Source: Citreicella sp. C3M06
GTDB taxonomy: Bacteria > Pseudomonadota > Alphaproteobacteria > Rhodobacterales > Rhodobacteraceae
Assembly (NCBI RefSeq): GCF_018860705.1
Contig: NZ_JAHKQA010000072.1
Coordinates: 1-64,000 of the forward strand
DNA length: 64,000 bases
Reading direction: 5' to 3'
Below the pieces are notes generated by a model. The model had not been told where the DNA came from. It searched no databases and worked only from the letters and a program-made list of their open reading frames with translations. Of the stretch, positions 2,566-22,545 are shown in pieces. Made by a program: the position numbers and the translations under genes. Positions within the stretch are counted from its first letter, which is position 1. Every line of letters begins with the position of its first letter.

Positions 2566-2583
2566 AAATGGCGGAGAGACAGG
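2566..2583. repeat. Left attachment site (attL) of the 20-kb island
   Basis: The 18-bp sequence aaatggcggagagacagg is identical to 22528-22545, where it covers the encoded CCA end, discriminator and acceptor stem of tRNA-Ser. It lies between two integrase genes that both start next to it. This is the classic arrangement of an island inserted at a tRNA 3' end, with the copied tRNA end left at the far junction. Confidence 0.9.
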
Positions 2584-2729
2584 CCGCCCGCATAGGTCGG
2601 CTATTAGATGCAAGAAGTTGCAATTCATACTGTAAACATGAGCATTTTTGCTTTCGACCTTAAGATCCCAATTGCTTTTCGTCGCAATCAAGAGCAAAGC
2701 CTATGGTGGGCTGGTTGGGGGGTGGCTGA

Positions 2730-4028
2730 ATGCCAAAGGTTGCTGCGGAGCTTTCAGCGCTTCAGATCAAACGCCTTGCTCATGGAGGTGGCAACAGCAA
2801 CTCGACCCATCCGGTTGGTGGCGTGTCAGGGCTTATGCTCCAGATCACCCCGAACAATGCGCGCTCATGGATATTGCGGACTACCGTTGGCGCGCGTCGG
2901 CGGGAAATAGGATTAGGCGGTTTTCCTGAGGTGAGCCTCGCTCAAGCGCGGGAGATGGCTCGGGACCTCAAGGCCAAGATAAGGCAGGGCGTCGATCCGG
3001 TGGAAGAGCGCAGGGCTGCCCATGCCGCGCTTGTCACCGAGCAAAAGCGCGGGCTGACCTTTCGCGAGGCGGTCGACAAGTACCTCTCGGTCAAGCTCGA
3101 CCAGTTCTCCAACGAAAAGCACAAGAAGCAATGGTGCTCCACCTTGCAGACCTATGCCAACCCAGAGATCGGTGACATGTTGGTTCAGGATATTGTGGTC
3201 CAAGATGTTCTGCGCGTGCTAGAGCCCATTTGGACCACAAAAACCGAGACCGCGACCCGTGTCAGGGGGCGCATCGAAAGCATCCTCTCATGGGCAACGA
3301 TTGCGGGTCACAGATCTGGTGACAACCCGGCCCGCTGGGGCGGCAATCTCAAGGAATTGCTGCCGATCCCTTCGAAGGTGTCCAAGAGTTCAAACCAGCC
3401 AGCCCTCCAGCTCGTCGATGCGTCCCGATGGTACAGCGCGCTGCGGGCGCGTGACGGTATCGGCAGCCGCGCGCTGGAGTTCACCGCACTGACCGCGACA
3501 CGCTCACAGGAGGTGCGCGGCGCAACCTGGGATGAGATCGACCTGGACGCCGGCCTCTGGATCATTCCTGCAAATCGCATGAAGATGGACCGGGAGCACC
3601 GGGTACCGCTGAGCCTGGACGCCATTGGCCTTCTCAAGGCACTGCCCCGTTTTGAGGGAAATGATCTGCTGTTTCCTGCGCCCCGCGGGGGTCCTTTGTC
3701 CGACATGACATTGAGCGCGGCGATGAAGCGTTTGCACGCCACCGATCTGGCTGCCGGGGGCGGCGGATTCATTGATCGTGAAAGCAAACGACCGGCCGTA
3801 CCACACGGCCTGCGCTCGACCTTCCGCGACTGGGTCGCCGAAAAGACACCTTACCCCGGCGACCTCGCCGAGATTGCCTTGGCCCACAGGATCAGAAATG
3901 CCGTAGAGGCGGCGTATCGGCGTGGTGACATGATTGAGAAGCGCAGGGGTATGATGGATGATTGGGCGGGGTTTCTTATCGGGCCCGCCCGGAGCACTGC
4001 AACACTCAGCGAAATGAGAACCAGCTAG
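2730..4028 (+). CDS. P4-type tyrosine integrase of the CRISPR-bearing island
   Basis: A 432-residue integrase with the layout of the P4/CP4-57 family: an N-terminal DUF4102 arm-type DNA-binding domain (about 1-95, with IGLGGFPEVSLAQAR), a core-binding domain and a C-terminal catalytic domain. Visible catalytic residues are R258 in TATRSQEV, H359 and R362 in HGLRSTF, H386 in LAHR and Y396 in AAYRRGD. The family integrates at tRNA 3' ends, which fits the tRNA-Ser repeats. It lies 147 bp inside the left repeat and is followed after one base by the next gene, so the two are probably co-transcribed. It appears intact. Confidence 0.96.
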   Translation: MPKVAAELSALQIKRLAHGGGNSNSTHPVGGVSGLMLQITPNNARSWILRTTVGARRREIGLGGFPEVSLAQAREMARDLKAKIRQGVDPVEERRAAHAALVTEQKRGLTFREAVDKYLSVKLDQFSNEKHKKQWCSTLQTYANPEIGDMLVQDIVVQDVLRVLEPIWTTKTETATRVRGRIESILSWATIAGHRSGDNPARWGGNLKELLPIPSKVSKSSNQPALQLVDASRWYSALRARDGIGSRALEFTALTATRSQEVRGATWDEIDLDAGLWIIPANRMKMDREHRVPLSLDAIGLLKALPRFEGNDLLFPAPRGGPLSDMTLSAAMKRLHATDLAAGGGGFIDRESKRPAVPHGLRSTFRDWVAEKTPYPGDLAEIALAHRIRNAVEAAYRRGDMIEKRRGMMDDWAGFLIGPARSTATLSEMRTS

Positions 4029-4029
4029 A

Positions 4030-4734
4030 ATGACCCCTCTCGACTTCCGGCGACGCGCCGTAGACCACACAGTTGAAGATGCCACGATACTCATCGTCGG
4101 TGGCGACCCGGATCAGCAAGACCAGCTGAACGACGATCCGTTTGACAATCGAATGGTGAAAAGAACCGTCGGCCATTCCGGGTACACCACCGTGTTTGAT
4201 ATGCTCACAAGTGCGATAGTGTCGAAGCATCTGAAGGCCGTGTTACAATACCCTGTCTACGAACTGTCGCGAAAGCGGTGTTTTCCGGACGGCATCATCT
4301 TAACTGCTGACCAAATCAACCTGGACGGGGCGGATCGAGAGAATGAACACGGGGAGTTGAAACGTTTTAGCACTACCAGGCTGCCCGACTGGACACGGTC
4401 ACGTGTTGCCACGTCCGATATACGCGAATGGCTGAGGGCAATCAGTTTGAAGTCCACGTTCTTCCTGCCGGAGAGCACCGACATTGGCTTCAGAGATCGA
4501 AACCACCCGAGGTATTCAGCCAAACTCGCCTGTGCAGTTGCAGCTTGGGAAGCTATTGGTGTGCCGAAGCGCGGGCGGTCGGTGAAACAGACGGTTGCAG
4601 GATGGGTGAAAGAGAACGGTCACGCCTACGGCATGGGCCTCGCCGGCGAAGAAAGCGCTCGACGGACGCAATTCATCGAGGACGTTGCGAAAATCGTGAA
4701 CTGGGAAACCGGGGGCGGTGCGCCGAAGTCTTGA
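4030..4734 (+). CDS. Unknown integrase-linked island protein
   Basis: A 234-residue protein starting one base after the integrase stop codon, so almost certainly translated from the same message. I do not recognise a named domain. The C-terminal third (about 160-234) includes HPRYSAKLACAVAAWEAI and ends NWETGGGAPKS. The same layout and ending recur in the truncated reading frame at 18235-18540, so this is a conserved module of this element type. No membrane segment or signal peptide is seen. A role linked to DNA or element maintenance is only inferred from position. Confidence 0.8.
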   Translation: MTPLDFRRRAVDHTVEDATILIVGGDPDQQDQLNDDPFDNRMVKRTVGHSGYTTVFDMLTSAIVSKHLKAVLQYPVYELSRKRCFPDGIILTADQINLDGADRENEHGELKRFSTTRLPDWTRSRVATSDIREWLRAISLKSTFFLPESTDIGFRDRNHPRYSAKLACAVAAWEAIGVPKRGRSVKQTVAGWVKENGHAYGMGLAGEESARRTQFIEDVAKIVNWETGGGAPKS

Positions 4735-4796
4735 TGTGGCGGCCTCTAGCTTAACCCTAACCAAAATTAAGCATTTGATTTACTGTCTTTTTTATT

Positions 4797-4822
4797 CGCG
4801 GTCATCAATTTGGATGACCGCG
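4797..4822. promoter_or_regulatory. Perfect 10-bp hairpin between the integrase operon and alpA
   Basis: Arms cgcggtcatc (4797-4806) and gatgaccgcg (4813-4822) are separated by a 6-base loop. A T-rich run precedes it rather than follows it, so a terminator on the + strand is not clear. It lies 103 bp upstream of alpA and could be an operator or a terminator for opposite-strand transcription. Confidence 0.45.
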
Positions 4823-4925
4823 CTCATGCCTGAGCCCACCTTGGGTTTTGGTAACCTGATCAGCTATTTAAGCGACTGATTTCATTGTGGAACGACATCC
4901 TGTTACAGCATGCAGGAGCAATACA

Positions 4926-5117
4926 ATGCCTGACGTCTACCTCTCCATCCTCCAGTTGGCGGCCCGATACAGCGTCCACCGAGCCACACCATGGCGCTGG
5001 ATCAAAAGTGATTCGAACTTCCCGAAGCCAGTGGTCCTCTCGCCGGGCTGCACCCGGTGGAAGCTCTCCGAGCTCGAAGCTTGGGAGAAATCGAAAACCA
5101 CGCGGCCTGCCGGCTGA
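4926..5117 (+). CDS. AlpA-family excisionase/transcription regulator (copy 1)
   Basis: A 63-residue helix-turn-helix protein of the AlpA/MerR-like excisionase type. It has the family pattern: AARYSVHRATPWRWIKSDSN for the helix-turn-helix, then FPKPVVLSPGCTRWKLSEL and EAWE. The ATG at 4926 was preferred because CAGGAG lies 8 bases upstream. AlpA proteins act with P4-type integrases as directionality factors and activators. A close homologue lies at 18760-18948, with most residues shared, which points to two related modules in one island. Confidence 0.88.
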   Translation: MPDVYLSILQLAARYSVHRATPWRWIKSDSNFPKPVVLSPGCTRWKLSELEAWEKSKTTRPAG

Positions 5118-5215
5118 ACCAGACCCCGGCCGGACAGGACGGGGGTTAGAGCTGGAGCGTTCACGAGATACGCTGGCCCGGCCCATCCTTCGGCATCGGT
5201 GAAAGGACAATCACC

Positions 5216-5646: not shown

Positions 5647-5669
5647 ATCCTGTGTGGTAGCTGGCCTTC

Positions 5670-5880: not shown

Positions 5881-5885
5881 GTTGA

Positions 5886-7152
5886 TTACGCCATTGGGAA
5901 CCGATCCTCGAACATGATGGCGAGTTGGCTCTTCACGGCGTGCCATTCGCGGACTGATCGCTTCCACTCCTGAGAGGTAGCATTCAGCGCCAGATAGATC
6001 AATTTCGCCGCCGCCTCGTCGCTGGGGAAGTGCCCCCTTGTGCGGACGGCCCGGCGGATCTTCGAGTTCAGCGCCTCGATGGCATTCGTCGTGTAGATCA
6101 GTCTGCGGACCTCGGGCGGATAGTCGAGGAACGGGATCACCTCGGCCCAGGCTCGGCGCCAACTCGGCGCAATTGCCGGGTAACGGGCAGCCAGATCGCT
6201 GTCCTCGAACTCCGCCAGCGCGGTTTCGGCGGCTGCCGCGTCGACGGCCGTGTAGACTGCCTTGAGCGCCACAGCCACGGCCTTGCGGTCCTTGTAGCTG
6301 GCGAAGCTCATAGAATGGCGCAGCAGATGCACGATGCAGGTCTGAACCTGGGTCTGGGGGAAGGCCGCCTCTATGGCCTGCGGGAAGCCCTTGAGGCCGT
6401 CCACGACGGCGATCAGGATGTCCTGCACCCCGCGATTGCGCAGGTCATTGAGGACCTTGGCCCAGAACTTGGCGCCCTCGTTGGCCTGAAACCATAGCCC
6501 CAGCACGTCTCGCGTGCCGTCTGTCACCCGGCAGTGCATTTGCAAAGCAAATGTCACGAGAGGGCGGCAGGATGGCCAGGGCCACGAAGACCGCCTTGTT
6601 CGAGACCGCGCCATCGCTGCGGATATTGACCCGGATCGCGTCCAAGAACACGACCGGGTAGCAGGGCTCGAGCGGCCGGTTCTGCCAAGCCGTGACCTCC
6701 TCCATCACCGCATCGGTGATCGCCGAGATCAGGCTCGGGGAGGCTTCGATGCCGTAGATTTCCTCGATGTGTCCTCGGATTTCTCGGGTCGTCATTCCGC
6801 GCGCATACATAGAAATGATCTTGGTATCGAACTCCGGGAAACGGCGCTGATACTTGGCGATCAGCACGGGATCGAAGCTACCATTGCGGTCACGAGGGAT
6901 GTCCAGAACGACCTTGCCGCTGTCGGTGGTGACCGTCTTCTGGCTGCTACCGTTGCGCCGGTTCGGAGTCTGGGACGCCCCTTCCATTGGCGGCTCCGCT
7001 CGCTCCTCGGTCAGATGTTCATCCAGCTCGGCGCTCAGGGCACGCTCTGCCAGCGCCTTGGTCAGTTCAGCGAGAACGCCGTCCTTGCCGAAAAGGTCGC
7101 TGGCCGACCGGCCTTTCATCAGCTGGTCCAGAAGGTCTTTGTCGATGCTCAT
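5886..7152 (-). pseudogene. IS256-family transposase, frameshifted
   Basis: The N-terminal part (7152 down to about 6560) and C-terminal part (about 6540 to 5886) are in different frames. Together they show the Mutator/IS256 layout: an N-terminal DNA-binding region, first Asp in FLDAIRVNIR, second Asp in VVDGLKGFPQAI and Glu in TTNAIEALNSKIRR. At about 6525-6570 the reading frame carries an apparent extra segment, estimated at 43 bases from the usual family sequence, with a perfect palindrome (cattgc-type arms catttgc/gcaaatg around aaa). The two ends of the segment repeat gtgaca. A product would be truncated at 235 residues unless frameshifting occurs. Confidence 0.88.
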
Positions 7153-7180
7153 ACGTGGGTCTCCTCATCTCAGAGCTACC

Positions 7181-7882: not shown

Positions 7883-8006
7883 CGGCCAAGGAATTTCAAG
7901 AGGCCGTCAGCATGAAGAAGGATTGACTTCGAACATGGCACGCGCCACCACTTTGCGTGACACAGCCCCGCTGTTGCAGCGGCTTCTAGAACCTGATTGA
8001 GCGCGA
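7883..8006 (+). pseudogene. Decayed duplicate of the 5' end of cas3
   Basis: This stretch aligns with 8093-8217 at a constant offset of 210 bases, sharing cggccaaggaatttcaag, gccgtcagcatg, the block around ggcacg-gccacca and gttgcagcgg. Roughly four of five bases match. The position equivalent to the cas3 start codon reads AGG, and an in-frame stop follows soon, so it is not expressed. It is an old partial tandem copy of the cas3 start region and its ribosome site. Confidence 0.8.
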
Positions 8007-8110
8007 TCATTTCACTCGTGACATGACTCCATTAGCCTCTCCTTTATCTGCAATTGGGCACTTTCCCGCTAGCAGACACTATTGATTTTTTGCGGCCAAG
8101 GAATTTCAAG

Positions 8111-10600
8111 ATGCCGTCAGCATGGGGAAAGACTGACCCCGAACTTGGCACGAGCCACCATTTAGCGCATCACTGTGCAGACGTTGCAGCGGTCTTCAGA
8201 ACCTTGATCAAGCGCAACCATGTCCGCCGTGCAATATCACACGCATTGGGACGTGCTCTCCTCGCCGAAGAATTCGAAGCGTTGGTGGTCATGGCCTTCC
8301 TGCATGACATCGGGAAACTCGCTCCCGGGTTTCAGCTCAAGGGTTGGCCGGAGCTGGCATCGTCGAAAACCTATGGCCATTTGGAGGCAGGGCAGCACTG
8401 GCTGAACTTGCTTTGCGAGAGCTCTCTGAACGACCAAGTGGACGAGCTCGCTCAGATGTGCGGCGATCATGCCGAGCCGTGGTTCGATGTCATTTTTGCC
8501 CACCACGGTCGTCCGCAGCGACCTGTGAATGAAGCGTCGGCCAAAGGCTGTTTCCGCAACTTCGAAGGGTATGACTGGAAAGCCGAAGAAACAGTGATTG
8601 CGGATGCCATCAGCCAGTGGTTCCCTCCGCTAAGCACACTGATCTTGCCACCACCCAAGCCGCCGCTTTTGCATTTGATCGCAGGCTTGCTAGCGCTGGC
8701 TGATTGGCTCGGCTCAGACCGTGTGGCTTTCGCATTTGTTCCCGAGTATGATGCGTCTTATTGGGCACATACGCTTGATATCGCTCGGTCTCATGTCGAG
8801 GCCGTCGGGTTGGGGCTCGGGCGCGAAAGTCTGATCGGCCCACCGGATTGGGCGCTGATCTCCGACCATCCTGCTCCGCGCCCGGCGCAATCGGTACTAT
8901 CGCAGGTCGACCTGTCCGAAAAGCTCGTCATCCTCGAGGCGGAAACCGGGACGGGCAAGACCGAGGCCGCGCTGTGGCATTTCATCCGGCAACTGTCAGC
9001 TGAGAATGTCGAGGCGCTTTATTTTGCGGTCCCCACGCGCGCGGCGGCCCGGCAGCTTCACACCCGGATCACCACCGCGCTGACACGGATGTTCCGCGTG
9101 ACCGAGGAGCCCGTTCTCGCCATCCCCGGTCAGATGATGGCCGGAGAGGCCAAGGGCCGCTCACTGCCTGATTTCAAGGTGCTGTGGGATGATGGCGGGC
9201 CGACAACAAGCCGCTGGGCCGCTGAACAAGCCACGCGCTACCTGGCTGCCCGCATCGCAGTGGGCACAGTCGATCAGATTATGCTGGCGGGGTTGCAGGT
9301 GAAACACGCGCATCTGCGCGCAGCAGCCCTGTCACGCGCGCTTTTGGTCATAGACGAAGTTCATGCCTCTGATCCTTGGATGACGAATATCCAGAAAGCG
9401 GTTCTGGATGCGCATCTGAGCCTCGGAGGGCGGGCGCTTCTGATGTCGGCCACACTGGGGGCATCCGCGCGCACGCGTTGGACGGGCGATGCCCTGCCCA
9501 GTCCGGCGCAAACTGCATCTCTGCCTTACCCTGCCATTTGGGCAGGTCGGGCGCTTCTCCCCGTCCCAACCGATCCAGAGTCTCAAAAGGACGTGTACAT
9601 GTCGCCGCACAGGGGCTGGTCTGGCACGCAGGCTGCAGATCTGGCGCTAGAGGCAGCTCGAGACGGGGCTAAGGTCCTTGTCATCCGCAATACCGTCGAC
9701 CGGGCGCGCGACACTTGGCAGGCCTGCCTGGACGAAGCGCCCGAGTTGGTCATGGCGCTCGGCAAGAACGCCTGCCTGCATCACAGCCGTTTTGCTGCCG
9801 AGGATCGCGCCCAACTTGATACATGTGTAGAGGCCCTTCTCGGGAAAAATGTTCCGATGCAAGGCGTCATCATCATTGGCACGCAGACGCTGGAACAAAG
9901 CCTTGATATCAGCGCAGATCTGCTGATTACCGATCTGTGCCCGATGGATGTGCTGTTGCAGCGTATCGGGCGGCTGCATCGTCACGTGGGTGCCTTGCAC
10001 CCCAACGGCTTCAAGACACCGCGCTGCATCGTCCTGACGCCGGACCATGGGCTTTCCCCACTGGTGACGCGGGCCGAAAACGGTCTTGGCGTCTATGAAA
10101 ACGGATCGAGCATCTCGGGAGTCTATATCGATGTCTGTGGGCTAAAAGCCACGCTTGATCAGATTGAGGCCCACTCCTGCTGGTCGATCCCGGCGATGAA
10201 CCGCGCGCTGGTCGAGGCTGCAACCCATCCGCTCAATCTTGATTCCATCGCCGAGCGTGAAGGCTGGCAGACCCATCGCGCGCGTGTCACCGGCAAGGGC
10301 TTTGCCGAAAAGCTCGCCGCACGTCACGTGATCCTCGACCGCTCGAAACCGCTTGCCCCCTTTCCTGATGACGAGGCGATCCGAACCCGGCTTGGGGCCG
10401 AGGGAGTGATGGTGCAGTTTCCACCAAGCACAATCGGCCCGTTCGGTACCGAGATCCGGCGCATGGCCCTTCCTGCGCATTGGTCGCATGGGCTTGATCC
10501 CGAAACGCTGGTGCTTGCGACCGAGGGCGCCGCATTGCGCCTGACAATGTCGGAAAAATCCTTCCTGTATGACTGTTCGGGGCTGAGAAAAGATGACTGA
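8111..10600 (+). CDS. cas3: Cas3 nuclease-helicase, type I-E
   Basis: An 829-residue Cas3. It is recruited to Cascade-bound target DNA, nicks the displaced strand with its HD nuclease and degrades it while translocating. Order: N-terminal HD domain (HHLAHHCADVAAV, then H65-D66 in FLHDIGK), helicase domain 1 with Walker A ETGTGKTE (about 278) and DEVH (about 415), SAT in LMSATLG, and domain 2 with TLEQSLDIS and QRIGRLHRH (about 617). The ATG at 8111 has AAGGAA 8 bases upstream and was chosen over a TTG at 8054. It overlaps casA by 8 bases. All catalytic motifs look intact. Confidence 0.96.
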   Translation: MPSAWGKTDPELGTSHHLAHHCADVAAVFRTLIKRNHVRRAISHALGRALLAEEFEALVVMAFLHDIGKLAPGFQLKGWPELASSKTYGHLEAGQHWLNLLCESSLNDQVDELAQMCGDHAEPWFDVIFAHHGRPQRPVNEASAKGCFRNFEGYDWKAEETVIADAISQWFPPLSTLILPPPKPPLLHLIAGLLALADWLGSDRVAFAFVPEYDASYWAHTLDIARSHVEAVGLGLGRESLIGPPDWALISDHPAPRPAQSVLSQVDLSEKLVILEAETGTGKTEAALWHFIRQLSAENVEALYFAVPTRAAARQLHTRITTALTRMFRVTEEPVLAIPGQMMAGEAKGRSLPDFKVLWDDGGPTTSRWAAEQATRYLAARIAVGTVDQIMLAGLQVKHAHLRAAALSRALLVIDEVHASDPWMTNIQKAVLDAHLSLGGRALLMSATLGASARTRWTGDALPSPAQTASLPYPAIWAGRALLPVPTDPESQKDVYMSPHRGWSGTQAADLALEAARDGAKVLVIRNTVDRARDTWQACLDEAPELVMALGKNACLHHSRFAAEDRAQLDTCVEALLGKNVPMQGVIIIGTQTLEQSLDISADLLITDLCPMDVLLQRIGRLHRHVGALHPNGFKTPRCIVLTPDHGLSPLVTRAENGLGVYENGSSISGVYIDVCGLKATLDQIEAHSCWSIPAMNRALVEAATHPLNLDSIAEREGWQTHRARVTGKGFAEKLAARHVILDRSKPLAPFPDDEAIRTRLGAEGVMVQFPPSTIGPFGTEIRRMALPAHWSHGLDPETLVLATEGAALRLTMSEKSFLYDCSGLRKDD

Positions 10601-12720: not shown

Positions 12721-13844
12721 CAGACGCCCGCTTTCTGCAGATCCATTTTCTTGCGCCCTATACAGCCGCGCTTCTGAATCGCGATGATGCGGGGCTTGCC
12801 AAACGCCTCCCCTTCGGTGGCCATCTGCGCACCCGCGTCAGCTCGCAATGTCTCAAGCGGCACTGGCGCGTGGCCGAAGATCCGCACGCGCTGCACAAGA
12901 TCGACGGCGCCAAAGCTGCCTATCGTTCGCGCGAGACGATCGAGCGCAAGGTCTTCGCGGGATGGTCAGAGGGGGCCGATGACGACGTTCTGAAAGAGAT
13001 CAAGCTCGCCATGCTGATCGCCGTCTATGGTGACAGGGCCGAGGCAAAGAAATCGCGCCAGACACTTCTGGTCGGCGCCCCCGAGGTGACCTACCTGACC
13101 GGCGAGGCGAAGCGGCTCGTGGCAGAGGCCGCGGGTGACAAGAACGCCGCGAAGACTCTCGCTGCCGAATGGTTGAAAACCCACAAGCAAAACCTCAAGG
13201 TGATGAGCGCGGGTGTTAGCCTTCCCGCCGGCCTGACAGGCGCGTTGTTCGGGCGAATGGTCACCTCGGACCCGCGCGCCAACATCGATGCGGCGTTGCA
13301 TGTTGCCCATGCCTTCACCGTGCATGCCGAAGAGGCGGAAAGCGACTATTTTATCGCCGTCGACGATCTGGCGCAGGAAGAGGAAACTGGAGCCGATACC
13401 ATCCAGGAGACCGAGCTGACCTCGGGCCTTTTCTACGGCTACGTCGTGGTGGATCTGCCCGCACTGTTCGAAAATCTCGGCCAGGACTCCGCATTGATGG
13501 GCGAGGTTCTGCACAATCTGGTCTACCTGATCGCCGAAGTTTCTCCCGGAGCCAAGCTTGGTTCTACGGCACCTTATAGTCGCGCGTCCTTCATGCTGCT
13601 CGAGGCAGGTGACCGTCAGCCCCGCTCGCTTGCGGATGCGTTCCGCACCCCCTGCCGTGCCGAGACACCCGTTGCCGTGGCGGCGCTGTGCGATCACTTG
13701 GCAGCGCTGGATCGTGTCTATGACACTGGCGAAATTCGCCACGTCATGAGCCTATCGAACCGCGAGGTGCCCGGGACCACGGCAGGCAACCTGCGCGATC
13801 TGGCGGCGTTCGCAAAATCCACGGTGGCGAAAGAGCTCGCCTGA
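12717..13844 (+). CDS. cas7e: Cascade backbone subunit Cas7e (CasC/Cse4)
   Basis: A 375-residue RAMP-fold protein forming the six-copy backbone along the crRNA. The family signature is clear at the N-terminus: LQIHFLAPYTAALLNRDDAG, then GGHLRTRVSSQCLKRHWR, and further on EVTYLTGEAK. Length is normal for Cas7e. It overlaps casB by four bases and touches cas5e by one base (TGATG). Confidence 0.96.
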   Translation: MTDARFLQIHFLAPYTAALLNRDDAGLAKRLPFGGHLRTRVSSQCLKRHWRVAEDPHALHKIDGAKAAYRSRETIERKVFAGWSEGADDDVLKEIKLAMLIAVYGDRAEAKKSRQTLLVGAPEVTYLTGEAKRLVAEAAGDKNAAKTLAAEWLKTHKQNLKVMSAGVSLPAGLTGALFGRMVTSDPRANIDAALHVAHAFTVHAEEAESDYFIAVDDLAQEEETGADTIQETELTSGLFYGYVVVDLPALFENLGQDSALMGEVLHNLVYLIAEVSPGAKLGSTAPYSRASFMLLEAGDRQPRSLADAFRTPCRAETPVAVAALCDHLAALDRVYDTGEIRHVMSLSNREVPGTTAGNLRDLAAFAKSTVAKELA

Positions 13845-14596
13845 TGCGCGATTGGTTGCACCTGACGTTGCGCGCCCCGCTGATGGCCTTTGGCGGGGTT
13901 GCGATCGACCACATGGGGCCGACTCGGGACTTTCCGTCTCTATCGGCAATGACCGGACTTCTTGCCAATGCACTAGGGTATGAAAGGTATCAGGGCACCG
14001 AATTGCAGGCCTTGCAGGATCGGTTGATCATCGGCGCGCTGACCTCACGACAGGGGCGGCGCCTGACCGACAATCAGAATGCTCGGGTCTACGACAAGGA
14101 ACCGGGATGGACGACCTATGGCCAACCCGAGTCCCGCAACAGCGGACCGTCTTACGGCAACCCCGCGCGGCACGATCAACTCGGCAATCAGGCGGGGCGC
14201 AAGTGGCTGACTCACCGCCGTTCGCGCGAATATCTGGCCGATCATGAAACCCGTGTTGTGCTGCGGCTGGAAGGTGTGGGGGCGGTAGACCTCGATGATC
14301 TGCGACAGGCTCTGATGCACCCCGCGCGTCCGCTGTTCATCGGGCGCAAGACTTGCCTGCCCACAGCGCCGATCTTCACCGGCACGTTGCGGGCCGAAAC
14401 GGTGCTGGACGCGCTGCGGGCCATTGGCCTGCCAGGGCATGCGCTCTGGCCCGCCGACGCGGGCGACGGGGCAGGGACAGCTTCGCCGCAAGACCTGCCG
14501 CCCGGCGCGATGAGCCATGACCTGCCCGATCTCCGCAACTGGCTCAGCGGGTTGCACACGGGGCGCCGCGGCGTGATCGAAGGGTTTTTGACATGA
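13844..14596 (+). CDS. cas5e: Cascade subunit Cas5e (CasD)
   Basis: A 250-residue RAMP protein that caps the 5' handle of the crRNA in Cascade. Hallmarks: LHLTLRAPLMAFGG at the N-terminus, PTRDFPSLSAMTGLLANALG, and RPLFIGRKTCLPTAPIF in the second half. Length is typical. The start overlaps the cas7e stop by one base and the stop overlaps cas6e by four, so the Cascade genes are coupled. Confidence 0.95.
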   Translation: MRDWLHLTLRAPLMAFGGVAIDHMGPTRDFPSLSAMTGLLANALGYERYQGTELQALQDRLIIGALTSRQGRRLTDNQNARVYDKEPGWTTYGQPESRNSGPSYGNPARHDQLGNQAGRKWLTHRRSREYLADHETRVVLRLEGVGAVDLDDLRQALMHPARPLFIGRKTCLPTAPIFTGTLRAETVLDALRAIGLPGHALWPADAGDGAGTASPQDLPPGAMSHDLPDLRNWLSGLHTGRRGVIEGFLT

Positions 14597-15399
14597 GCTT
14601 GCACCTGTTTCATTTGCCCATTGCCTTACGCGCGTTGCATGCTTGGGGCGAAGCGCGTGGCTTGGTGTCGCGCGGCATATTCGACGAGGGGCTTGCCCTG
14701 CATCACCTGCTAAGCGAGACCTTCGGCCCGTCCGTTTTGCAACCCTTCCGCCTGATGGTGCCGCCGCGGGCGCGCACTGGTGCGCTATATGGCTATGCCG
14801 CCCAGCCTGCTGAAATCTTGGCTCAAGCCGCGCAGGCCATTCTTGACCCGGTTGCGGCACAGGTCATCGACCTTGCGGCTCTACGCTCGCAGCCACGGCC
14901 CGAAACGGCCTGGCATGCAGGCCAGCGGCTGGGCTTCGATCTGCGGGTGCGCCCCGTGGTGCGGCTGGCCTCGCCCCTCGTCATGGGGCGCGAGACCTTC
15001 CGCAAGGGCGCCGAGGTCGATGCCTACCTGTCCCATGTCGCCCGGACTGAAGCGCGGGCGGAAACTGACCACGAGGCTGGCAGGCAAGGCGGGTCCGGTC
15101 GCGATGCGGTCTACCTCGATTGGCTGCGCAGGCGCCTTGATGGCCAAGCAGACCTAGACCCTGCACTGACCCGTCTTGCACAGTATGAACGGCGCCTGAT
15201 CCTGCGCAATGGCCGCAGGGCGGATGGCCCGGATGCCACGTTCCATGGCACACTGACTGTTACGGATCCGACGGGGTTCGCGGCACTACTGGCCCGCGGT
15301 GTCGGGCGGCACACGGCTTATGGATATGGCATGCTGATGCTGCGGCCCTCGCAAAAGACCCCGCAGAGCATGGCACCGGCCGCGCAGGAGGGTGCCTGA
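14593..15399 (+). CDS. cas6e: crRNA-processing endoribonuclease Cas6e (CasE)
   Basis: A 268-residue Cas6e that cuts the repeat hairpin of the precursor RNA and stays bound to the 3' end. The likely catalytic His region LALHHLLSETFG (about 34-45) corresponds to the conserved N-terminal His of the family. The C-terminal Gly-rich loop GVGRHTAYGYGMLML is the usual RNA-binding signature. The array repeats can form the short hairpin expected for such an enzyme. Confidence 0.95.
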   Translation: MSLHLFHLPIALRALHAWGEARGLVSRGIFDEGLALHHLLSETFGPSVLQPFRLMVPPRARTGALYGYAAQPAEILAQAAQAILDPVAAQVIDLAALRSQPRPETAWHAGQRLGFDLRVRPVVRLASPLVMGRETFRKGAEVDAYLSHVARTEARAETDHEAGRQGGSGRDAVYLDWLRRRLDGQADLDPALTRLAQYERRLILRNGRRADGPDATFHGTLTVTDPTGFAALLARGVGRHTAYGYGMLMLRPSQKTPQSMAPAAQEGA

Positions 15400-15400
15400 C

Positions 15401-16276
15401 ATGCTAAATGGGCGGCTTGGGCTCGAAAGTTCCAAGGTCCCGCATGCCGACAGGTCAGGGTGCCTCTACCTGGCCCGGGGGGCGCTGGTGGCGCGTGACG
15501 GCACGCTGTCCTTCACCCAGGGTCCCCCTACAGAAGCCGATGCTCTGACCCGGGGCGAATATGCCATTCCTCTGCAGGGTGTTTCGATCATCCTGCTGGG
15601 CCCGGGATCTACCGTCAGTCATGATGCGCTGCGCCTGTTGGCCCATGCGCGCACCGCGCTGGCTGCCGTGGGCGAAGACGGCGTGCGCATGTATACGGCC
15701 CCCCCCATCATTCCCGATCGCTCCGGTCTGGCGCGGCTGCAGGCACGGATTTGGGCGGATGATGATTTGCGCATCATGACTGCGCGTCGCATGTATGCCC
15801 TACGCTTGGGGGAGATTCTGCCACATCGGGATCTGAATGTCCTGCGCGGGATCGAAGGTTCTCGCATGAAACAGACTTACGCGCTGTTGGCAGACCGCAT
15901 CGGCATCAACTGGCAGGGCCGCCGCTACAACCGCGGTGATCCGATGGGCGCCGATCTTCCCAACCAGGCATTGAACCACGCCGCCAGCGCTGTCGAGGCT
16001 GCTGCGGCCATTGCTGTCTGCGCCACGGCCACCATTCCGCAATTGGGCTTTATCCACGAGGATCCCGGCCAGTCCTTCGTTCTTGATGTAGCCGATCTTT
16101 ACCGCGACAGCATCACCATCCCCTGCGCCTTCCGCGCTGCAAGGCAAGTGGCCGACCACCCCGCCGACAATATCGAGCGTACGACGCGCCGTATGACCGG
16201 CACGGCGCTGGCCAAGGAGAAAGTGATCCCCGAGATGATCGAGCGGATCAAGGCCCTGATCGAAGGCCGCGACTGA
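15401..16276 (+). CDS. cas1: CRISPR integrase Cas1 (type I-E)
   Basis: A 291-residue Cas1e that, with Cas2, inserts new spacers at the leader end of the array. Metal-binding residues appear in place: E152 in RGIEGSRMK, H219 in GFIHEDPG, and D229/D232 in LDVADLYRDS. ATG 15401 has AGGAGG nine bases upstream; a GTG at 15392 directly abuts that site and is less likely. The stop overlaps the cas2 ATG by one base. Confidence 0.96.
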   Translation: MLNGRLGLESSKVPHADRSGCLYLARGALVARDGTLSFTQGPPTEADALTRGEYAIPLQGVSIILLGPGSTVSHDALRLLAHARTALAAVGEDGVRMYTAPPIIPDRSGLARLQARIWADDDLRIMTARRMYALRLGEILPHRDLNVLRGIEGSRMKQTYALLADRIGINWQGRRYNRGDPMGADLPNQALNHAASAVEAAAAIAVCATATIPQLGFIHEDPGQSFVLDVADLYRDSITIPCAFRAARQVADHPADNIERTTRRMTGTALAKEKVIPEMIERIKALIEGRD

Positions 16277-16569
16277 TGCCGTTGACCGTGATCGTCACCC
16301 GCAATGTCGAGGCTCGCTACCGCGGCTTCCTGACCTCGATCATGCTCGAGGTTTCGGCAGGTGTCTATGTTGCGCCAAACATGACCAAGGGCGTGCGCGA
16401 GCGCACCTGGGCGGTGCTGAACGACTGGTGGCTGGCACTCGGCAACGGATCACTGACCCTGATCTGGCGCAATACCGCTGCGGTCGGGGAACTGAGTATC
16501 GAGACTCTCGGGGAGCCGCCGAAGGATATTGTCGACGCCGACGGCATTTTGCTCCTAAAACGAAAGTAA
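16276..16569 (+). CDS. cas2: Cas2e, type I-E adaptation partner
   Basis: A 97-residue Cas2 of the I-E (CasF-like) kind: MPLTVIVTRNVEARYRGFLT, EVSAGVYVAPNMTKGVRERTW and GSLTLIWRNT. Cas2 dimers bridge two Cas1 dimers in the spacer-acquisition complex. It is the last cas gene and ends 63 bp before the first repeat, as usual for I-E loci. Confidence 0.96.
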   Translation: MPLTVIVTRNVEARYRGFLTSIMLEVSAGVYVAPNMTKGVRERTWAVLNDWWLALGNGSLTLIWRNTAAVGELSIETLGEPPKDIVDADGILLLKRK

Positions 16570-16632: not shown

Positions 16633-17881
16633 GGTTCCCCCGCACACGCGGGGATAGTCCCCTGCCGGGCGGCTCGCAAGTGGTGCCGAATCAGGTTCCC
16701 CCGCACACGCGGGGATAGTCCCGTCGCTTGTACGCAACAGCAAAGATAGGCTCAGGTTCCCCCGCACACGCGGGGATAGTCCCTGACACGGGCGGCGGAT
16801 CTGTCGCGGGCGGCGGGTTCCCCCGCACACGCGGGGATAGTCCCCGAGCAGCCCGGTTCCTGCAGCCCTACGATGTGGTTCCCCCGCACACGCGGGGATA
16901 GTCCCCACTCCTTTAGCTGAATGTCACTGTTAGGATTGGTTCCCCCGCACACGCGGGGATAGTCCCTGGATCTTCTCGGCCAGGGTACGCCCGGTGGAGG
17001 TTCCCCCGCACACGCGGGGATAGTCCCCATCGTCCGTCATAATGATTTCTTGGCTGGCGGGTTCCCCCGCACACGCGGGGATAGTCCCCTAGAAAACGAC
17101 GATGGATCAATTCCAGAACAGGTTCCCCCGCACACGCGGGGATAGTCCCCTATACTGCACAACGGCGCTTGGCGCGGTGCAGGTTCCCCCGCACACGCGG
17201 GGATAGTCCCTTGATCAGGGGGACGATGATCCACCACCCTGAGGTTCCCCCGCACACGCGGGGATAGTCCCGCCCCGTAGGGTGCCCCGGTGAAGGAGTT
17301 GGTGGTTCCCCCGCACACGCGGGGATAGTCCCTGTGGCTCAGCAGACGCTGGCCTGTACCGGGGGGTTCCCCCGCACACGCGGGGATAGTCCCCGCAACA
17401 CCGGCGCGACGAATCTTTTCATTGTGGTTCCCCCGCACACGCGGGGATAGTCCCGGCGGCGGCGGCACCGGACAAGCTCTGCGCATGGTTCCCCCGCACA
17501 CGCGGGGATAGTCCCCGCGCTCTCCGGCGAGACGGAAGACGATGTTCGGTTCCCCCGCACACGCGGGGATAGTCCCTCAGGAAGCAACGGAAACGGCAAC
17601 GGCGTAGGGGTTCCCCCGCACACGCGGGGATAGTCCCTGGATCTTGGAAACGCCCGTCCCGCTGGGCACGGTTCCCCCGCACACGCGGGGATAGTCCCTA
17701 CGGCCTTTAATAATGGTTGACGTTCTCCCAGGTTCCCCCGCACACGCAGGGATAGTCCCCAGACATTGCGGGACACGCCGCAAATCTACTCGGTTCCCCC
17801 GCACACGCGGGGATAGTCCCGTGCGTCCATGTGCGGCCCCGGTCATCGGAATGGTTCCCCCGCACACGCGGGGATAGTCCC
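16633..17881 (+). CRISPR. Type I-E CRISPR array, 21 repeats and 20 spacers
   Basis: Repeats of 29 bp (starting ggttcccccgcac, ending gcggggatagtccc) recur with an exact 61-bp period from 16633 to 17853, so every spacer is 32 bp. Twenty copies are identical as read; repeat 19 (17731-17759) has one change (cgcggg to cgcagg), at the leader-distal side as expected for old repeats. The inner ccccgc/gcgggg arms form the Cas6e hairpin. All 20 spacers differ. By eye none matches elsewhere in the window. Confidence 0.99.
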
Positions 17882-17909: not shown

Positions 17910-18125
17910 ATGGATAACAACCAGCTCAAGGTGATAGCAGCAGAGCTGGTCAAGTCACTGAGGGAAAATTCCGGCGTTGACTGGTGGCAGCGCGAAGACG
18001 TGCGGGCCAAGATGAGGGTCGCGGTGAAACGGATTTTGCGGCGCTATGGGTACCCTCCCGACCTACAGGCTGACGCAGTGAAGCTAGTCATCAAGCAGGC
18101 TGAAGCTATGGCTCGCACGATGTAG
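17910..18125 (+). pseudogene. Orphan C-terminal fragment of a type I restriction HsdR subunit
   Basis: A 71-residue frame starting 28 bp after the last repeat. It reads LKVIAAELVKSLRENSGVDW, then VRAKMRVAVKRILRRYGYPP and ends in a short helix with QADAVKLVIKQAEAM. This is the pattern of the extreme C-terminus of EcoR124/EcoEI-type HsdR (DUF3387 region), which in full proteins follows about 900 residues of nuclease and helicase. Nothing upstream encodes those parts. It is most likely the remains of a type I restriction-modification system; a stand-alone small protein cannot be excluded because start and stop are intact. Confidence 0.75.
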
Positions 18126-18234: not shown

Positions 18235-18540
18235 TTGAGGTGTTTTGCACTGAAGTGTATCGACCCCCTGAAAAACAGCTCATGCTACAAGGGACGTAGC
18301 GCTGAGTATGACGATGGACGACAGCAGCAACGCCGGTTCGCTCCCGAATTCGCAGCCTGGCGGGCGCTGCTGCCAGAACGAACCTTCAAGACCTCACCAA
18401 AGGCCGCGATTGGTTCATGGCTCTTCTCAAAGCCAGATGACTGGCAGGGCGATGAATCGATGTCGGCAACCGCGATAGAACGCATCGATCCCCTTGTAAG
18501 CTGGAACAGAAGCGGCGGTGCGCCGAAGTGCGGAGGCTAA
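18235..18540 (+). pseudogene. Truncated second copy of the integrase-linked island protein
   Basis: The frame's second half, FAPEFAAWRALLPER, SPKAAIGSW, AIERIDPLVSWNRSGGAPKC, lines up with the C-terminal third of the protein at 4030-4734 (AAWEAI, SVKQTVAGW, DVAKIVNWETGGGAPK). The first 50 or so residues do not match and probably come from unrelated joined DNA. No good ribosome site is present. I read it as a C-terminal remnant of the second module. The 110 bp before it (18126-18234) shows nothing recognisable. Confidence 0.6.
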
Positions 18541-18759: not shown

Positions 18760-18948
18760 ATGTCCACCACCTTCCTGTCCGACCTTCAAATCGCCGTCCG
18801 CTATGGCGTCCATCGGTCAACGCCTTGGCGCTGGCTCAAGACTGATGATAGCTTTCCGGCGCCGGTAAGCCTGTCGCCCGGCTGCACCCGCTGGAAAATC
18901 GACGACCTCGAAGCATGGGAAGCCGCAAAGCGCGACACCGCAACATAA
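18760..18948 (+). CDS. AlpA-family excisionase/transcription regulator (copy 2)
   Basis: A 62-residue AlpA-type protein: DLQIAVRYGVHRSTPWRWLK for the helix-turn-helix, then FPAPVSLSPGCTRWKIDDL and EAWE. It is very similar to the product of 4926-5117. The ATG at 18760 matches the other copy's start; an earlier ATG at 18721 adds unrelated residues. It heads the replication gene cluster of the island and may control it or the integrase. Confidence 0.88.
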   Translation: MSTTFLSDLQIAVRYGVHRSTPWRWLKTDDSFPAPVSLSPGCTRWKIDDLEAWEAAKRDTAT

Positions 18949-19057: not shown

Positions 19058-19372
19058 ATGACGACAAAGAAATGGGCCAAAGCACCCTATATCATCACCC
19101 ATCGCACTGGCGAACAGCGCACCGCCTATACCGGTGGGCGTGTCCGCTGGGCTACCGAAGAACTGCGCAAGGCAGGCCCTAAAGGCCGCACCGGGCGCGA
19201 GGCACTGGGGCCGCGTTGGGCGGCATGTATCTGGGACGCCAAGCACGTTCACGGCATCACGATTGCCGATGTCTGTGAAACGCATGAAGGCGAGCACCCC
19301 GGCAGGCACAAGCGTTGGTTTCTGGATTGCGACACCCGCCCCGTCCCCCCGGCGCAGGAGGTGCGCGCATGA
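19058..19372 (+). CDS. Unknown small island protein
   Basis: A 104-residue basic, soluble protein with no family I can name. AAGAGG seven bases before the ATG at 19058 supports the start. It contains ELRKAGPKGRTGREALGPRW and a His/Cys-containing stretch AACIWDAKHVHGITIADVCE. Its TGA overlaps the next start as ATGA, so it belongs to the same operon as the primase. Confidence 0.72.
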   Translation: MTTKKWAKAPYIITHRTGEQRTAYTGGRVRWATEELRKAGPKGRTGREALGPRWAACIWDAKHVHGITIADVCETHEGEHPGRHKRWFLDCDTRPVPPAQEVRA

Positions 19373-19467
19373 CCCGGCTGCAAATCCTCTACCTCATGCG
19401 CACCCATGGGCTGACCGAAGCGCAGGCCAGCGCGATTTCCTCTCTGGTCTGGGGAGGGATGTCGTAA
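19369..19467 (+). CDS. Tiny coupled ORF upstream of the primase
   Basis: A 32-residue frame (MTRLQILYLMRTHGLTEAQA onward) whose start overlaps the previous stop (ATGA) and whose TAA overlaps the primase ATG (TAATG). Such tight coupling on both sides makes translation likely. Helical with no recognised domain. Confidence 0.55.
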   Translation: MTRLQILYLMRTHGLTEAQASAISSLVWGGMS

Positions 19468-20354
19468 TGGATGCCAAGGACATCACACTTGCCCTGCGGG
19501 GCCGCTGGTATCGGTCCTATGGGCTGGCGTTCTGCCCGGCGCATGGAAACGCCCGAACGCCCGCGCTGAGCCTGAGCAACGCCGCCGATGGGCGCTTGCT
19601 CGCCAAGTGTCACGCCGGGTGCGCTTGGGGCGACATCGTGGAGGCGCTCAAGGCGCTGGATCTGGCAGGCGGCGGGGGAGGGTATTCCCCGCCGGACCCA
19701 GACACGCTTGCCAGACGCGAGGCCGAGGCGCGGGCCAATGCCAACCGGCGCGAGCGGCAGGCGCTGGCGCTCTGGCGTGAGGGTTTGCCTATCAGCGGCA
19801 CCCTTGCGGAATGCTATCTTCGGGCGCGCGGGCTGAGCTGCGATCTGCCAGACACGCTGCGGTTTCATCCGTCCTGCTGGCATTCGAGCGCAAGGCGCTT
19901 TCCGGCGATGCTGGCGCGGGTGGACGGCGCGGCGCATTTTGCCCTGCACCGGACGTATCTTTGCCCGGACGGCACCGGCAAGGCCGAGGTGACGCCCAAC
20001 AAGGCGATGCTGGGAGCTGTCATGGGCGGCGCGGTGCGCCTATCTGATACCGAGGGGCCCCTGGTGGTGGCCGAAGGCATCGAGACCGGGCTGGCGCTGC
20101 TGTCGGGGCTGCTGCAACTGCCGGTGCGTCTTTGGGCCTGCCTGTCAGCATCCGGGATGCAGCGCGTAACCCTGACGTCAAATCCCGAACGCCTGATCAT
20201 CGCCACCGACAGCGACGATTCCGGGGTGGGCAAAGCGGCGGGCGATGCGCTAGCGCTGCGGGCATCATCTCTGGGCTGGACCGTCAGCCTGTTTCCAGCG
20301 CCGAAGGGATGCGACTGGGCCGATATCCTTGCATTGAACGGGGCCGTAGAATGA
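19467..20354 (+). CDS. Primase with CHC2-type zinc finger and Toprim domain
   Basis: A 295-residue protein resembling primases of P4-like elements and plasmids. The N-terminus has a zinc-ribbon pattern (C-P-A-H at about 24-27, then KCHAGC at about 48). The C-terminal half is a Toprim domain with VVAEGIETGLALL (catalytic Glu) and IIATDSDDSGVGK (the acidic D-x-D pair). It would make RNA primers for element replication. The helicase-like partner follows directly with an ATGA overlap. Confidence 0.86.
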   Translation: MDAKDITLALRGRWYRSYGLAFCPAHGNARTPALSLSNAADGRLLAKCHAGCAWGDIVEALKALDLAGGGGGYSPPDPDTLARREAEARANANRRERQALALWREGLPISGTLAECYLRARGLSCDLPDTLRFHPSCWHSSARRFPAMLARVDGAAHFALHRTYLCPDGTGKAEVTPNKAMLGAVMGGAVRLSDTEGPLVVAEGIETGLALLSGLLQLPVRLWACLSASGMQRVTLTSNPERLIIATDSDDSGVGKAAGDALALRASSLGWTVSLFPAPKGCDWADILALNGAVE

Positions 20355-21847
20355 CGATGCCCAACCCTATTCCCTTCACCCCGGCCGACCATTGGCCGGA
20401 CCCCGACATGCGCTTTGCCGCCCCGCAAAGACCGCCCGCGCCGGTGATGTCGCCCGATGACTTCGGGGGCGTTTATGGCCCTTGGGCGAGCTGGCTGACC
20501 ACCGCAGCCGAGGTGAAAGGCGCGCCGGTGGATTATGTCGCGCTTGGGCTGCTGACCACCGCAAGCGCGGCGATTGGCAATTCCCGCTGGTTCTCGCCTT
20601 GGAACGGCTGGACCGAACCGCCCGTGCTCTGGGCCATGCTGGTGGGCGACCCTTCGGCGGGCAAATCCCCGGCGCTGGATGCGGTGGCTGATCCGGTAAA
20701 GGACATCGAACGCGCGCTATCGCAGCAGTATCAGTCAGCCTGGCAGACATGGAAGGACAAGGACGAAATCGCATCGCTTGCGTTGTTGCAATGGAAAGTC
20801 GAAGCCAAGCGCGCGCTGGCCGATGGGCAAGAGCCGCCCGCAAAACCGACCGGGGCGGACGCGGGTGCGCCGCCGGTGCGCGAGCGGCTGACCATCACCG
20901 ACGCGACCACGGAAAAGGTGGCCGAGCTGCTGGCGCAGACTTGGCGCGGGCTGCTGATGTCGCGGGATGAACTGTCGGGCTGGCTGGCGAGCATGGACCG
21001 TTACAGCGGCGGGGGCGACCGGCCTTTCTGGCTCGAAGCCTATGGCGGCAGATCCTACCCGGTGGACCGCAAATCATCGCCCGAACCGATCATCGTGGAT
21101 CACCTGACCGTCGCGGTGCTGGGCGGCACGCAACCTGACAAGCTGGCGCGGCTGCTGGTGAACACCGACGATGACGGCTTGCTTGCCCGTTTCCTGACCG
21201 TGTTCCCCGATCCCGTTCCCTTGTCGCGCCCTGCCGCGCAGATCGACACGGCGATGGTGCGGGTGGCGCTGGAACGGTTACGCAGCCTTGGCGCGGCGCG
21301 GGATGACGCCGGCGCGAAAAGCCCGTTCTACATCGTATTTAGCGAGGCGGCGGCGGATGCCTTGCAGGACTTTCGCAAGCAATGCCGCGACTGGGAAACC
21401 GAGGCCAGTGGCTTGTTGAAGGGGCATATCGGCAAGATGCCTGGGATGGCGGTGCGCGTAGCCGGGGTGCTGGCGCATCTGGACTGGGCGGTAGAGGCGC
21501 GCGCGCCCTATCCTGACAAGATCGGCGTGGGCCACATCGCGCGCGCCTGTCACCTGGTGGGCGGGCATCTGCGGCTTCACGCCTTCCGAGCCTATGGCGC
21601 GGCATCCCCGCCCGACGACATCCGCAACGCACGGCGCATTGCCGATGTCATCCGGTCCGAGGACTGGCAGAACTTCACCGCGCGCGACATCCAGCGCCGG
21701 GGGCTAGCGGGGCTGCAACTGGCGAAGGCGGTGCAAGCGGCACTCGACGTGCTGGAACAGGCCGACTGGGTGATGCGCTTTCGCGAGGAAACCGGCGGCA
21801 AGCCAAGGGTTGTCTATGTAGTGAACCCAAGGACACGGGCGGCGTGA
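20351..21847 (+). CDS. DUF3987 ATPase, likely element replication helicase
   Basis: A 498-residue DUF3987 protein. Walker A is GDPSAGKSPALDAV (about 105) and a Walker B-like LLMSRDELSGW follows at about 210. Such proteins accompany primases in integrating elements and probably act as replicative helicases or initiators; that role is inferred from genomic partnership. ATG 20351 overlaps the primase stop. C-terminal AAVQAALDVLEQADWVMRF resembles a winged helix. It is the last gene of the island. Confidence 0.82.
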   Translation: MTMPNPIPFTPADHWPDPDMRFAAPQRPPAPVMSPDDFGGVYGPWASWLTTAAEVKGAPVDYVALGLLTTASAAIGNSRWFSPWNGWTEPPVLWAMLVGDPSAGKSPALDAVADPVKDIERALSQQYQSAWQTWKDKDEIASLALLQWKVEAKRALADGQEPPAKPTGADAGAPPVRERLTITDATTEKVAELLAQTWRGLLMSRDELSGWLASMDRYSGGGDRPFWLEAYGGRSYPVDRKSSPEPIIVDHLTVAVLGGTQPDKLARLLVNTDDDGLLARFLTVFPDPVPLSRPAAQIDTAMVRVALERLRSLGAARDDAGAKSPFYIVFSEAAADALQDFRKQCRDWETEASGLLKGHIGKMPGMAVRVAGVLAHLDWAVEARAPYPDKIGVGHIARACHLVGGHLRLHAFRAYGAASPPDDIRNARRIADVIRSEDWQNFTARDIQRRGLAGLQLAKAVQAALDVLEQADWVMRFREETGGKPRVVYVVNPRTRAA

Positions 21848-21858
21848 CCACCCGACGA

Positions 21859-21905
21859 CCTGACAATACCTGACATAAGCCCCCTTTTGTCAGGTATTGT
21901 CAGGG
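21859..21905. repeat. Inverted pairs of CCTGACA, possible iteron/origin
   Basis: A perfect 17-bp inverted repeat with arms 21859-21875 and 21889-21905 and a 13-base loop taagccccctttt. Each arm holds two copies of cctgaca separated by three bases. It starts 12 bases after the DUF3987 stop, so it may act as a terminator, a replication-initiator site, or both. Confidence 0.65.
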
Positions 21906-22321
21906 TGTCAGTAGGGTCATCTCAGGGTGGTTACGGGCGCGCAGCTTTCCGCAGCCGATAAGCCAAGAGGCGCTACTACATGAGCAGCGAAGACCTCGCA
22001 GACATCCGCAAACGCGCCAGATCCGAAGCGGGCAAATGCCGGTGAAGGCTGCATGGCGGTGTATCCCCCGGCCCGACGTCTCTCGAAGGTAAAGAGCGCA
22101 TCCGTAAGCCCATGCACAAACGTTGGGCGCGTTGGCGGGCAGAGCGGCAAGGCTGACCCGTACCGGTATCGCGCCAGTGTTAACGTTGCAGACGCAAGAG
22201 GCCGTCAGATTTGCCCGTGACCACCCCCGCGCATTTGTATCGGGGGGGTAGTCGAATCTAGACATCCAAACCGCTGTTGCCCGAACACCCCCGTCTCTTG
22301 CGCGTGTCCGCAGTTCAGCAT

Positions 22322-22343
22322 TTTTAACCGGGGGCGGTTAAAA
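22322..22343. repeat. Perfect hairpin in the island's right end
   Basis: Arms ttttaaccg and cggttaaaa around gggg. It may be a terminator or part of the presumed origin; no adjacent gene explains it. Confidence 0.5.
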
Positions 22344-22527
22344 TCTCTGACATCCAAGGGCTGGAAACCGCGCAACTTCCTGCGTGTGCGATAAGCTCTC
22401 AAAAACAGGGGGTGGCCCCTGTCAGGGAGGCATGTCGCAAACTGTTGCGTTCAAGCGTTTCTAGCTTGGCGGGTAGGTTGTCGGGTATGATCCGCATAAT
22501 ACCAATTTACCATTTGAAATCAAAGGT

Positions 22528-22545
22528 AAATGGCGGAGAGACAGG
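22528..22545. repeat. Right attachment site (attR) within tRNA-Ser
   Basis: Identical to 2566-2583 over 18 bp. It includes the tRNA's CCA, discriminator base and acceptor-stem strand, so the tRNA stays functional after insertion. Confidence 0.9.

Follow-up and report, generated by a model that had tools for sequence, protein, structure and literature searches.

How does a complete adaptive immune system come to lie beside a tRNA gene, and could it leave again as a unit? This question is raised by a locus of Citreicella sp. C3M06 (contig NZ_JAHKQA010000072.1, G000:C41 in our numbering, where G, C and L denote genomes, contigs and loci; 410,813 bases of a 5.01-Mb draft genome). Within the first 64,000 bases of this contig, hereafter the window, a type I-E CRISPR-Cas (clustered regularly interspaced short palindromic repeats and CRISPR-associated genes) system with a 21-repeat array shares a 19,962-bp island with a P4-type integrase, a Toprim primase and a DUF3987 ATPase. 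The island is bounded by identical 18-bp repeats, which we term attachment (att) copies. A first-pass annotation had already recognized both repeats, the right one as the 3′ end of a tRNA-Ser(CGA) gene, and had placed the integrase just inside the left repeat and the primase and DUF3987 genes near the right end, all of which was borne out. An integrase together with direct repeats, one of which completes a tRNA 3′ end, identifies the locus as a tRNA-integrated genomic island. Its landmarks are as follows.

2566..2583, no strand: left att copy, an 18-bp repeat identical to the right copy.
2730..4028, plus strand: int1, the P4-type integrase of the island, with Arm-DNA-bind_3, Phage_int_M and Phage_integrase domains.
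19134..20354, plus strand: Toprim/DUF7146 primase, by domain match; open reading frame (ORF) as listed, with the start probably further in.
20351..21847, plus strand: DUF3987 ATPase/helicase (PF13148, 4.4e-66; PHROG DNA helicase).
22528..22545, no strand: right att copy, an 18-bp repeat overlapping the tRNA 3′ end.
22531..22620, minus strand: tRNA-Ser(CGA), intact, with the right repeat as its 3′ end.

The int1 gene is a single 432-aa open frame, with 164 bp separating its start from that of the left repeat, and no third copy of the 14-bp att core (up to two mismatches) is present in the first 26 kb of the window. Relatives of int1 (E up to 1e-110) were found in 71 of 394 genomes of the bacterial family, the source genome included. 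Forty regions were fetched and five added (the window, L043 and L166-L168), giving 45, or 44 without the window. A strict test, which required a repeat containing the tRNA 3′ end at no more than 400 bp upstream of the integrase, delimited 28 of the 45 regions, so that 27 of the 44 others share the att and tRNA geometry of the window. The distance from att to integrase is 152-227 bp in all 28 delimited regions, for which a chance control recovered a 14-mer of the tRNA end in none of 5305 random 400-bp stretches. Across the 27 siblings the repeats measure 14-21 bp and the islands 4.9-16.6 kb, and the tRNA genes occupied are those for Ser (17, five of them at CGA), Arg (4), Glu (2), Gly (2), Ala (1) and Cys (1). 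Because the same att spacing and tRNA partnership recur across these siblings, it is usual in this family for the integrase to stand at a distance from the tRNA. To this extent the earlier proposal that the whole immune system is integrating cargo holds: the cas genes form part of an island delimited by an integrase and att copies, with a geometry that is that of a family.

The cargo of this family is varied. The 27 delimited siblings contain 151 ORFs of at least 200 aa, of which 106 from 26 islands were scanned. Among the best 25 of 187 PADLOC families, type III methyltransferase models matched at least four ORFs and type III restriction models at least three; the best 25 of 57 Pfam families include Prim-Pol (at least six), DUF3987 (at least three), VapE and Phage_capsid (at least two each) and single type I restriction-modification proteins. 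The restriction-modification matches indicate that restriction systems form part of the family cargo.

The left flank of the island offers a view of the site before insertion, as a second integrase gene lies there, 37 nt away and reading outward.

1110..2531, minus strand: int2, tyrosine recombinase of a second tRNA-Ser island that runs past the contig end (Phage_integrase, 6.9e-11); its relatives adjoin intact tRNA genes.

Relatives of int2 occur in 10 of the 394 genomes, again counting the source genome. In eight of the other nine a tRNA gene adjoins (tRNA-Ser(CGA) in four, tRNA-Arg in two, tRNA-Ser(GCT) and tRNA-Cys in one each), the exception being G029, which has no tRNA beside its int2. 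When the CRISPR island is removed in silico, tRNA-Ser(CGA) is followed 37 nt downstream by int2. In G035, G203, G082 and G372 the gap between the tRNA and the first possible start of the int2 relative is 40, 19, 37 and 27 nt, respectively, and the bases just past the tRNA look similar between these genomes and the rebuilt junction. Since the rebuilt junction resembles those of int2-bearing relatives in other genera, we conclude by this analogy that the CRISPR island was inserted between the tRNA and an older island, exactly at the repeats. The first-pass annotation would have been contradicted by an empty site whose ends depart from the repeats; in the rebuilt site they fall exactly at the repeats. 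As separate observations on such neighbours, a low-GC ORF of the left island (59-874) matches the phage family phrog_5322 (2e-52), and G029:C2 (L223, L224) carries an int1 island at tRNA-Ser(CGA) and, about 20 kb further on, an extra core copy together with an int2-type integrase, possibly representing tandem islands.

Comparison with congeners bears on the movement of the right end. All 19 congeners examined retain tRNA-Ser(CGA), and in the fetched stretches of two (G016 and G008) a second same-strand att core is present at no more than one mismatch; an inverted core copy with three mismatches in G002 was disregarded. In G016 (L043) the same tRNA-Ser(CGA) holds a sibling island with an integrase 71.5% identical to int1, an AlpA gene, Toprim (57%) and DUF3987 (25%) proteins, a 17-bp att and the same layout, but its length is 7.94 kb and it lacks cas genes, with no match to our four tblastn queries (cas3, cas8e, cas7 and cas1). 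From the tRNA inward, identity between G002 and the window is 93.0% across the first 1346 nt and 96.3% across a further 482 nt, as against 76.7% across 2518 nt of adjoining chromosome; the remainder of the G002 island is rearranged, with no cas match. Because the right end is so much closer than the chromosome beside it, we read this similarity as a sign that the right end has recently passed from one species to another.

The immune system itself occupies positions 8054-16569 (the cas block) and the array behind it.

8054..10600, plus strand: cas3; core and HD models above NCBIfam cut-offs.
10593..12146, plus strand: cas8e/cse1; NCBIfam 30.4 bits against a cut-off of 70.05, homologous in place.
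12061..12720, plus strand: cse2/cas11, assigned from its position and from homologues at the equivalent place; start probably further in.
12717..13844, plus strand: cas7e, above the NCBIfam cut-off.
13844..14596, plus strand: cas5e, above the NCBIfam cut-off.
14593..15399, plus strand: cas6e; passes Pfam PF08798 at 96 bits, below the NCBIfam cut-off (35.4 against 45.2).
15392..16276, plus strand: cas1e, above the NCBIfam cut-off.
16276..16569, plus strand: cas2e, above the NCBIfam cut-off.
16633..17881, plus strand: CRISPR array of 21 repeats (29 nt each) and 20 spacers (32 nt each), with a period of 61.

The gene order cas3-cas8e-cse2-cas7-cas5-cas6-cas1-cas2 followed by an array of 29-nt repeats is that of type I-E. 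No family model matched Cse2 in the profile scans, and syntenic homologues of Cse1, Cas6e and Cse2 are present in related loci. The first-pass annotation had described eight cas genes with intact active sites and a regular array. The genes and the array are as it described, and the residue check, which covered Cas1 and Cas3, found the HD and helicase motifs of Cas3 conserved in alignments to solved structures and, likewise, the residues of Cas1 that we take to be catalytic. The system may be capable of both adaptation and interference.

What this system may have encountered is suggested by a single spacer. For spacer 2, 28 of 32 letters agree with the ribonucleotide reductase gene of Roseobacter phage CRP-3 (BLAST E 0.1), and all four mismatches (positions 8, 14, 26 and 32) fall on third codon positions of the gene, which fits an origin of the spacer from a related phage; this is the sole target candidate, and a likely one. 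The array matched 15 phage records at E up to 10 and 93 plasmid records, the latter, among the matches listed, mostly at 60-80% identity in many pieces, which we take for other arrays. Seeds of spacers 1 and 2 (22-23 nt), the two spacers scanned in this way, had no match in viral contigs, and beyond the array the source genome held weak spacer matches only, none convincing (best E 0.064). The first-pass suggestion that the system excludes rival elements fared less well: among the 229 fetched loci, many of which are rival islands, no spacer match was of protospacer quality (best 20 of 22 letters), and such short chance matches lend no support to a system aimed at rival islands.

The island is not a simple element, as becomes apparent from genes and remnants that duplicate or interrupt the family backbone.

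4030..4734, plus strand: integrase-contiguous gene, beginning 1 nt past the int1 stop, with homologues behind the integrase in L173, L177 and L192.
4926..5117, plus strand: AlpA 1 (PF05930, 25.3 bits, cut-off 21; PHROG excisionase/regulator).
5886..7152, minus strand: IS256-type (Mutator) transposase in two frames, with PF00872 on each half.
7883..7994, plus strand: decayed 112-bp duplicate of the cas3 5′ region, 79% identical to 8093-8204.
17910..18125, plus strand: HsdR remnant, comprising the C-terminal 69 residues of this type I restriction subunit (PF11867, 1.1e-27, profile 260-328 of 329).
18235..18540, plus strand: C-terminal remnant of a second integrase-contiguous gene, 51.6% identical over 62 residues to that of L173.
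18763..18948, plus strand: AlpA 2, 67% identical to AlpA 1, from the PHROG scan.

An AlpA match was obtained in 31 of the 44 sibling regions, always as one copy, and AlpA behind the integrase is the family order. In the window, int1, the contiguous gene and AlpA 1, followed by a small helix-turn-helix-like frame, conform to this pattern, yet a second AlpA gene is present, which falls under the threshold of the Pfam AlpA model although it is 67% identical to the first. The HsdR remnant sits between the array and the remnant of the second contiguous gene, after which come AlpA 2, the Toprim gene and the DUF3987 gene. Two AlpA copies together with two gene remnants point to the fusion of two siblings, and the simplest history is probably that two tandem siblings were joined by a deletion in which the inner att was lost together with the second integrase and the greater part of a restriction-modification system. 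The split transposase and the decayed cas3 copy represent further turnover within the island, the latter suggesting that an earlier cas3 was replaced. The single simple element of the first-pass annotation therefore stands as an att-bounded island, and gives way to one with two AlpA modules in tandem with a second island; the integrase outside on the left, the AlpA pair, the hsdR C-terminal remnant and the split IS256-type transposase were all absent from that account.

Type I-E systems also lie in islands with int1-family integrases in two further genomes. At G321:C2:39221-65900 (L194, L211), an int1-family integrase of 58% identity, with an intact 422-aa frame, lies 165 bp from a 14-bp copy of the end of a tRNA-Ser(TGA) gene located 26.7 kb away. 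The island contains all eight type I-E genes, each above an NCBIfam cut-off, and at least 42 exact repeats at 61-nt spacing; no AlpA match was found in it, and its Cas proteins are only 29-37% identical to those of the window (cas6 by a short piece only). Glycosyl-hydrolase, HlyD and glycosyltransferase genes lie beside the integrase, and a C-terminal fragment of a second integrase directly precedes the array, so that the CRISPR system may be part of a broken island nested within. Behind tRNA-Ser(GCT) in the Gemmobacter metagenome-assembled genome UBA12163 (L067 and L235) come all eight cas genes (cas1 85% identical) and at least 12 repeats. Further along, its int1-type integrase is in two parts on opposite strands, a C-terminal piece on one and the N-terminal part, accompanied by a 14-bp att copy, on the other, as if split by an inversion through the gene, although an assembly error is possible. 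On an integrase tree of 51 rows, the three rows with CRISPR are unclustered and require three changes, at least two of them forced by starred branches, where shuffled labels need 2.9. Judged by this tree, the island family has gained type I-E systems independently at least twice.

Taken as a whole, the locus is, we believe with considerable confidence, a mobile tRNA-Ser island with CRISPR cargo. Its backbone is that of a family of small tRNA-targeted islands, found in this bacterial family and consisting of an integrase, a contiguous gene, AlpA, a replication module and variable cargo; two tandem siblings probably fused with loss of the inner att and integrase, and the island lies between the tRNA and the older int2 island. 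Int1, with AlpA as excisionase, would recombine the two 18-bp sites and so release all 20 kb in circular form. The circle would reintegrate at tRNA-Ser genes, and the Toprim and DUF3987 proteins may replicate it. Transfer would require a helper, most likely a phage, and once in a host Cas1-Cas2 would add spacers and Cascade-Cas3 would cut invaders.

Several observations weigh against this interpretation. No excised circle and no same-strain empty site were seen; the original distal flank lies beyond the contig end, and a search of the source genome for it was unsuccessful. A stretch common to G007, G018 and G019, the only flank for which the noisy tblastx comparison of relatives' flanks was used, was located on contig C68 of the source genome and rejected, as it has no adjoining att core, ordinary genes run on and synteny is broken. 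Among the siblings, 17 of 44 regions failed strict delimiting (that of G321 was delimited later with more sequence), and the closest sibling of int1 within the genus is without cas. The similarity to G002 is limited to the right end and does not cover the cas genes. Around cas1-related loci of Rhodobacteraceae from genome_contigs, many on short contigs, a home-made profile found an integrase within about 10 kb in 4 of 55, of the int1 family in L067 only. Finally, Primorskyibacter sedentarius (L089:3440-11073) has a truncated cas1 (86%, residues 35-294) and cas2 (88%) 6.5 kb from a tRNA-Ser(CGA), with no array and no int1, AlpA, Toprim or DUF3987 match; whether it is a relative of the island we leave undecided. 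A cas locus at the same place in relatives lacking the integrase was named at the outset as contrary evidence, and L089 is a partial instance of it, no clean case having been found.

The strongest alternative, possible though clearly less probable to us than a mobile island, is that the element was formerly mobile and is now fixed: although integrase and att copies are intact by sequence, the fused and IS-scarred island would no longer excise, and its CRISPR-Cas system would be a resident of the host. The split transposase, the hsdR and contiguous-gene remnants, the decayed cas3 duplicate and the neighbouring island on the left are consistent with such a fate. Against it stand an uninterrupted int1 frame, att copies without a single difference and an intact tRNA.

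A further alternative, unlikely but somewhat close behind, is a PICMI- or PICI-like phage satellite, in which a helper phage would trigger excision by AlpA and int1, the Toprim and DUF3987 proteins would replicate the element, and the helper would package and transfer it, the CRISPR system defending host or helper against competing phages. The SatelliteFinder model of PICMIs comprises PF00589, PF05930 and PF13148 (PMC10803314, as excerpted), and the window island likewise combines an integrase, alpA and a DUF3987 primase, in the PICMI order of integrase, contiguous or overlapping gene, AlpA and primase. Defence cargo is common to both, and the excerpt of the same paper describes PICMIs with two or three alpA copies, ascribed to recombination between satellites. 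Int1 relatives also occur on four IMG/VR contigs. Among ten singly scanned sibling ORFs, L204 (about 10 kb, tRNA-Cys) encodes an HK97-type capsid protein and a D5/DUF5906 primase, and L193 (about 10 kb, tRNA-Ser(TGA)) encodes a weak portal domain, just below the Pfam cut-off, and a terminase domain, such that both look like capsid-forming satellites. Conversely, the window island is integrated at tRNA-Ser(CGA) rather than at the hallmark fis site, is about three times longer (20 kb against a mean of 6.7 kb for Vibrionaceae PICMIs), has a separate Toprim protein, a full CRISPR-Cas system, a non-Vibrio host and no known helper; PMC10803314 describes complete PICMIs from Vibrio only. Among the selected ORFs of the island that were scanned there was no packaging gene, nor was a cos/pac site seen, and cas1 was unmatched in viral contigs. 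Given the absence of fis integration, its length and the lack of a known helper, we do not file the island as a PICMI. P4-like satellites have a P4-type integrase at a tRNA, AlpA and a primase. These features are shared by the island, and both carry defence cargo. The P2/P4 hotspots, as the available portion of PMC9122126 describes them, hold elements without large systems such as CRISPR-Cas, and the island, were it a satellite, would be an exception to that pattern.

That the cas locus is instead ancestral to the genus, with repeats and integrase added around it, is very improbable: cas1 genes of 62-86% identity are widespread in Rhodobacteraceae records, but only two of 20 genomes of the genus contain cas1, that of the second being unrelated at 35% identity, and the four tblastn queries found no cas next to tRNA-Ser(CGA) in the 16-19 kb fetched from each of 19 congeners.

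The proposed mobile tRNA-Ser island has a precedent in Vibrio cholerae GI-24, a genomic island with a type I-E system whose excision was detected by nested PCR (PMC6360697, as excerpted). Both are integrase- and att-bounded islands of similar size (17 kb for GI-24) with a complete type I-E system and array, whereas GI-24 lies between VC0289 and VC0290 rather than at a tRNA, has another cas order and a Vibrio host, and is likened here by layout, not by integrase sequence. A type I-E system on an excisable island was thus already known; what is new is the carrier, its probable origin by fusion and the fact that capture has recurred. Titles and abstract openings of the literature covered, in which subscription journals are mostly not represented, yielded no CRISPR-bearing tRNA-Ser island in Rhodobacteraceae.

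CRISPR-Cas systems are lost and regained across species, and their carriers are seldom pinned down. With a family that has sharp ends, a known target and many siblings, it becomes possible to test directly how a whole immune system is captured and spreads. More speculatively, and in our estimation rather doubtful, the island could be a helper-dependent satellite with complete adaptive immunity, in which fusion made room for the cargo and CRISPR memory crosses species in phage particles, arming hosts against the competitors of the helper. This would break the pattern of satellites with short defence systems only, and if the family does consist of phage satellites, adaptive immunity could travel in phage particles as satellite cargo.

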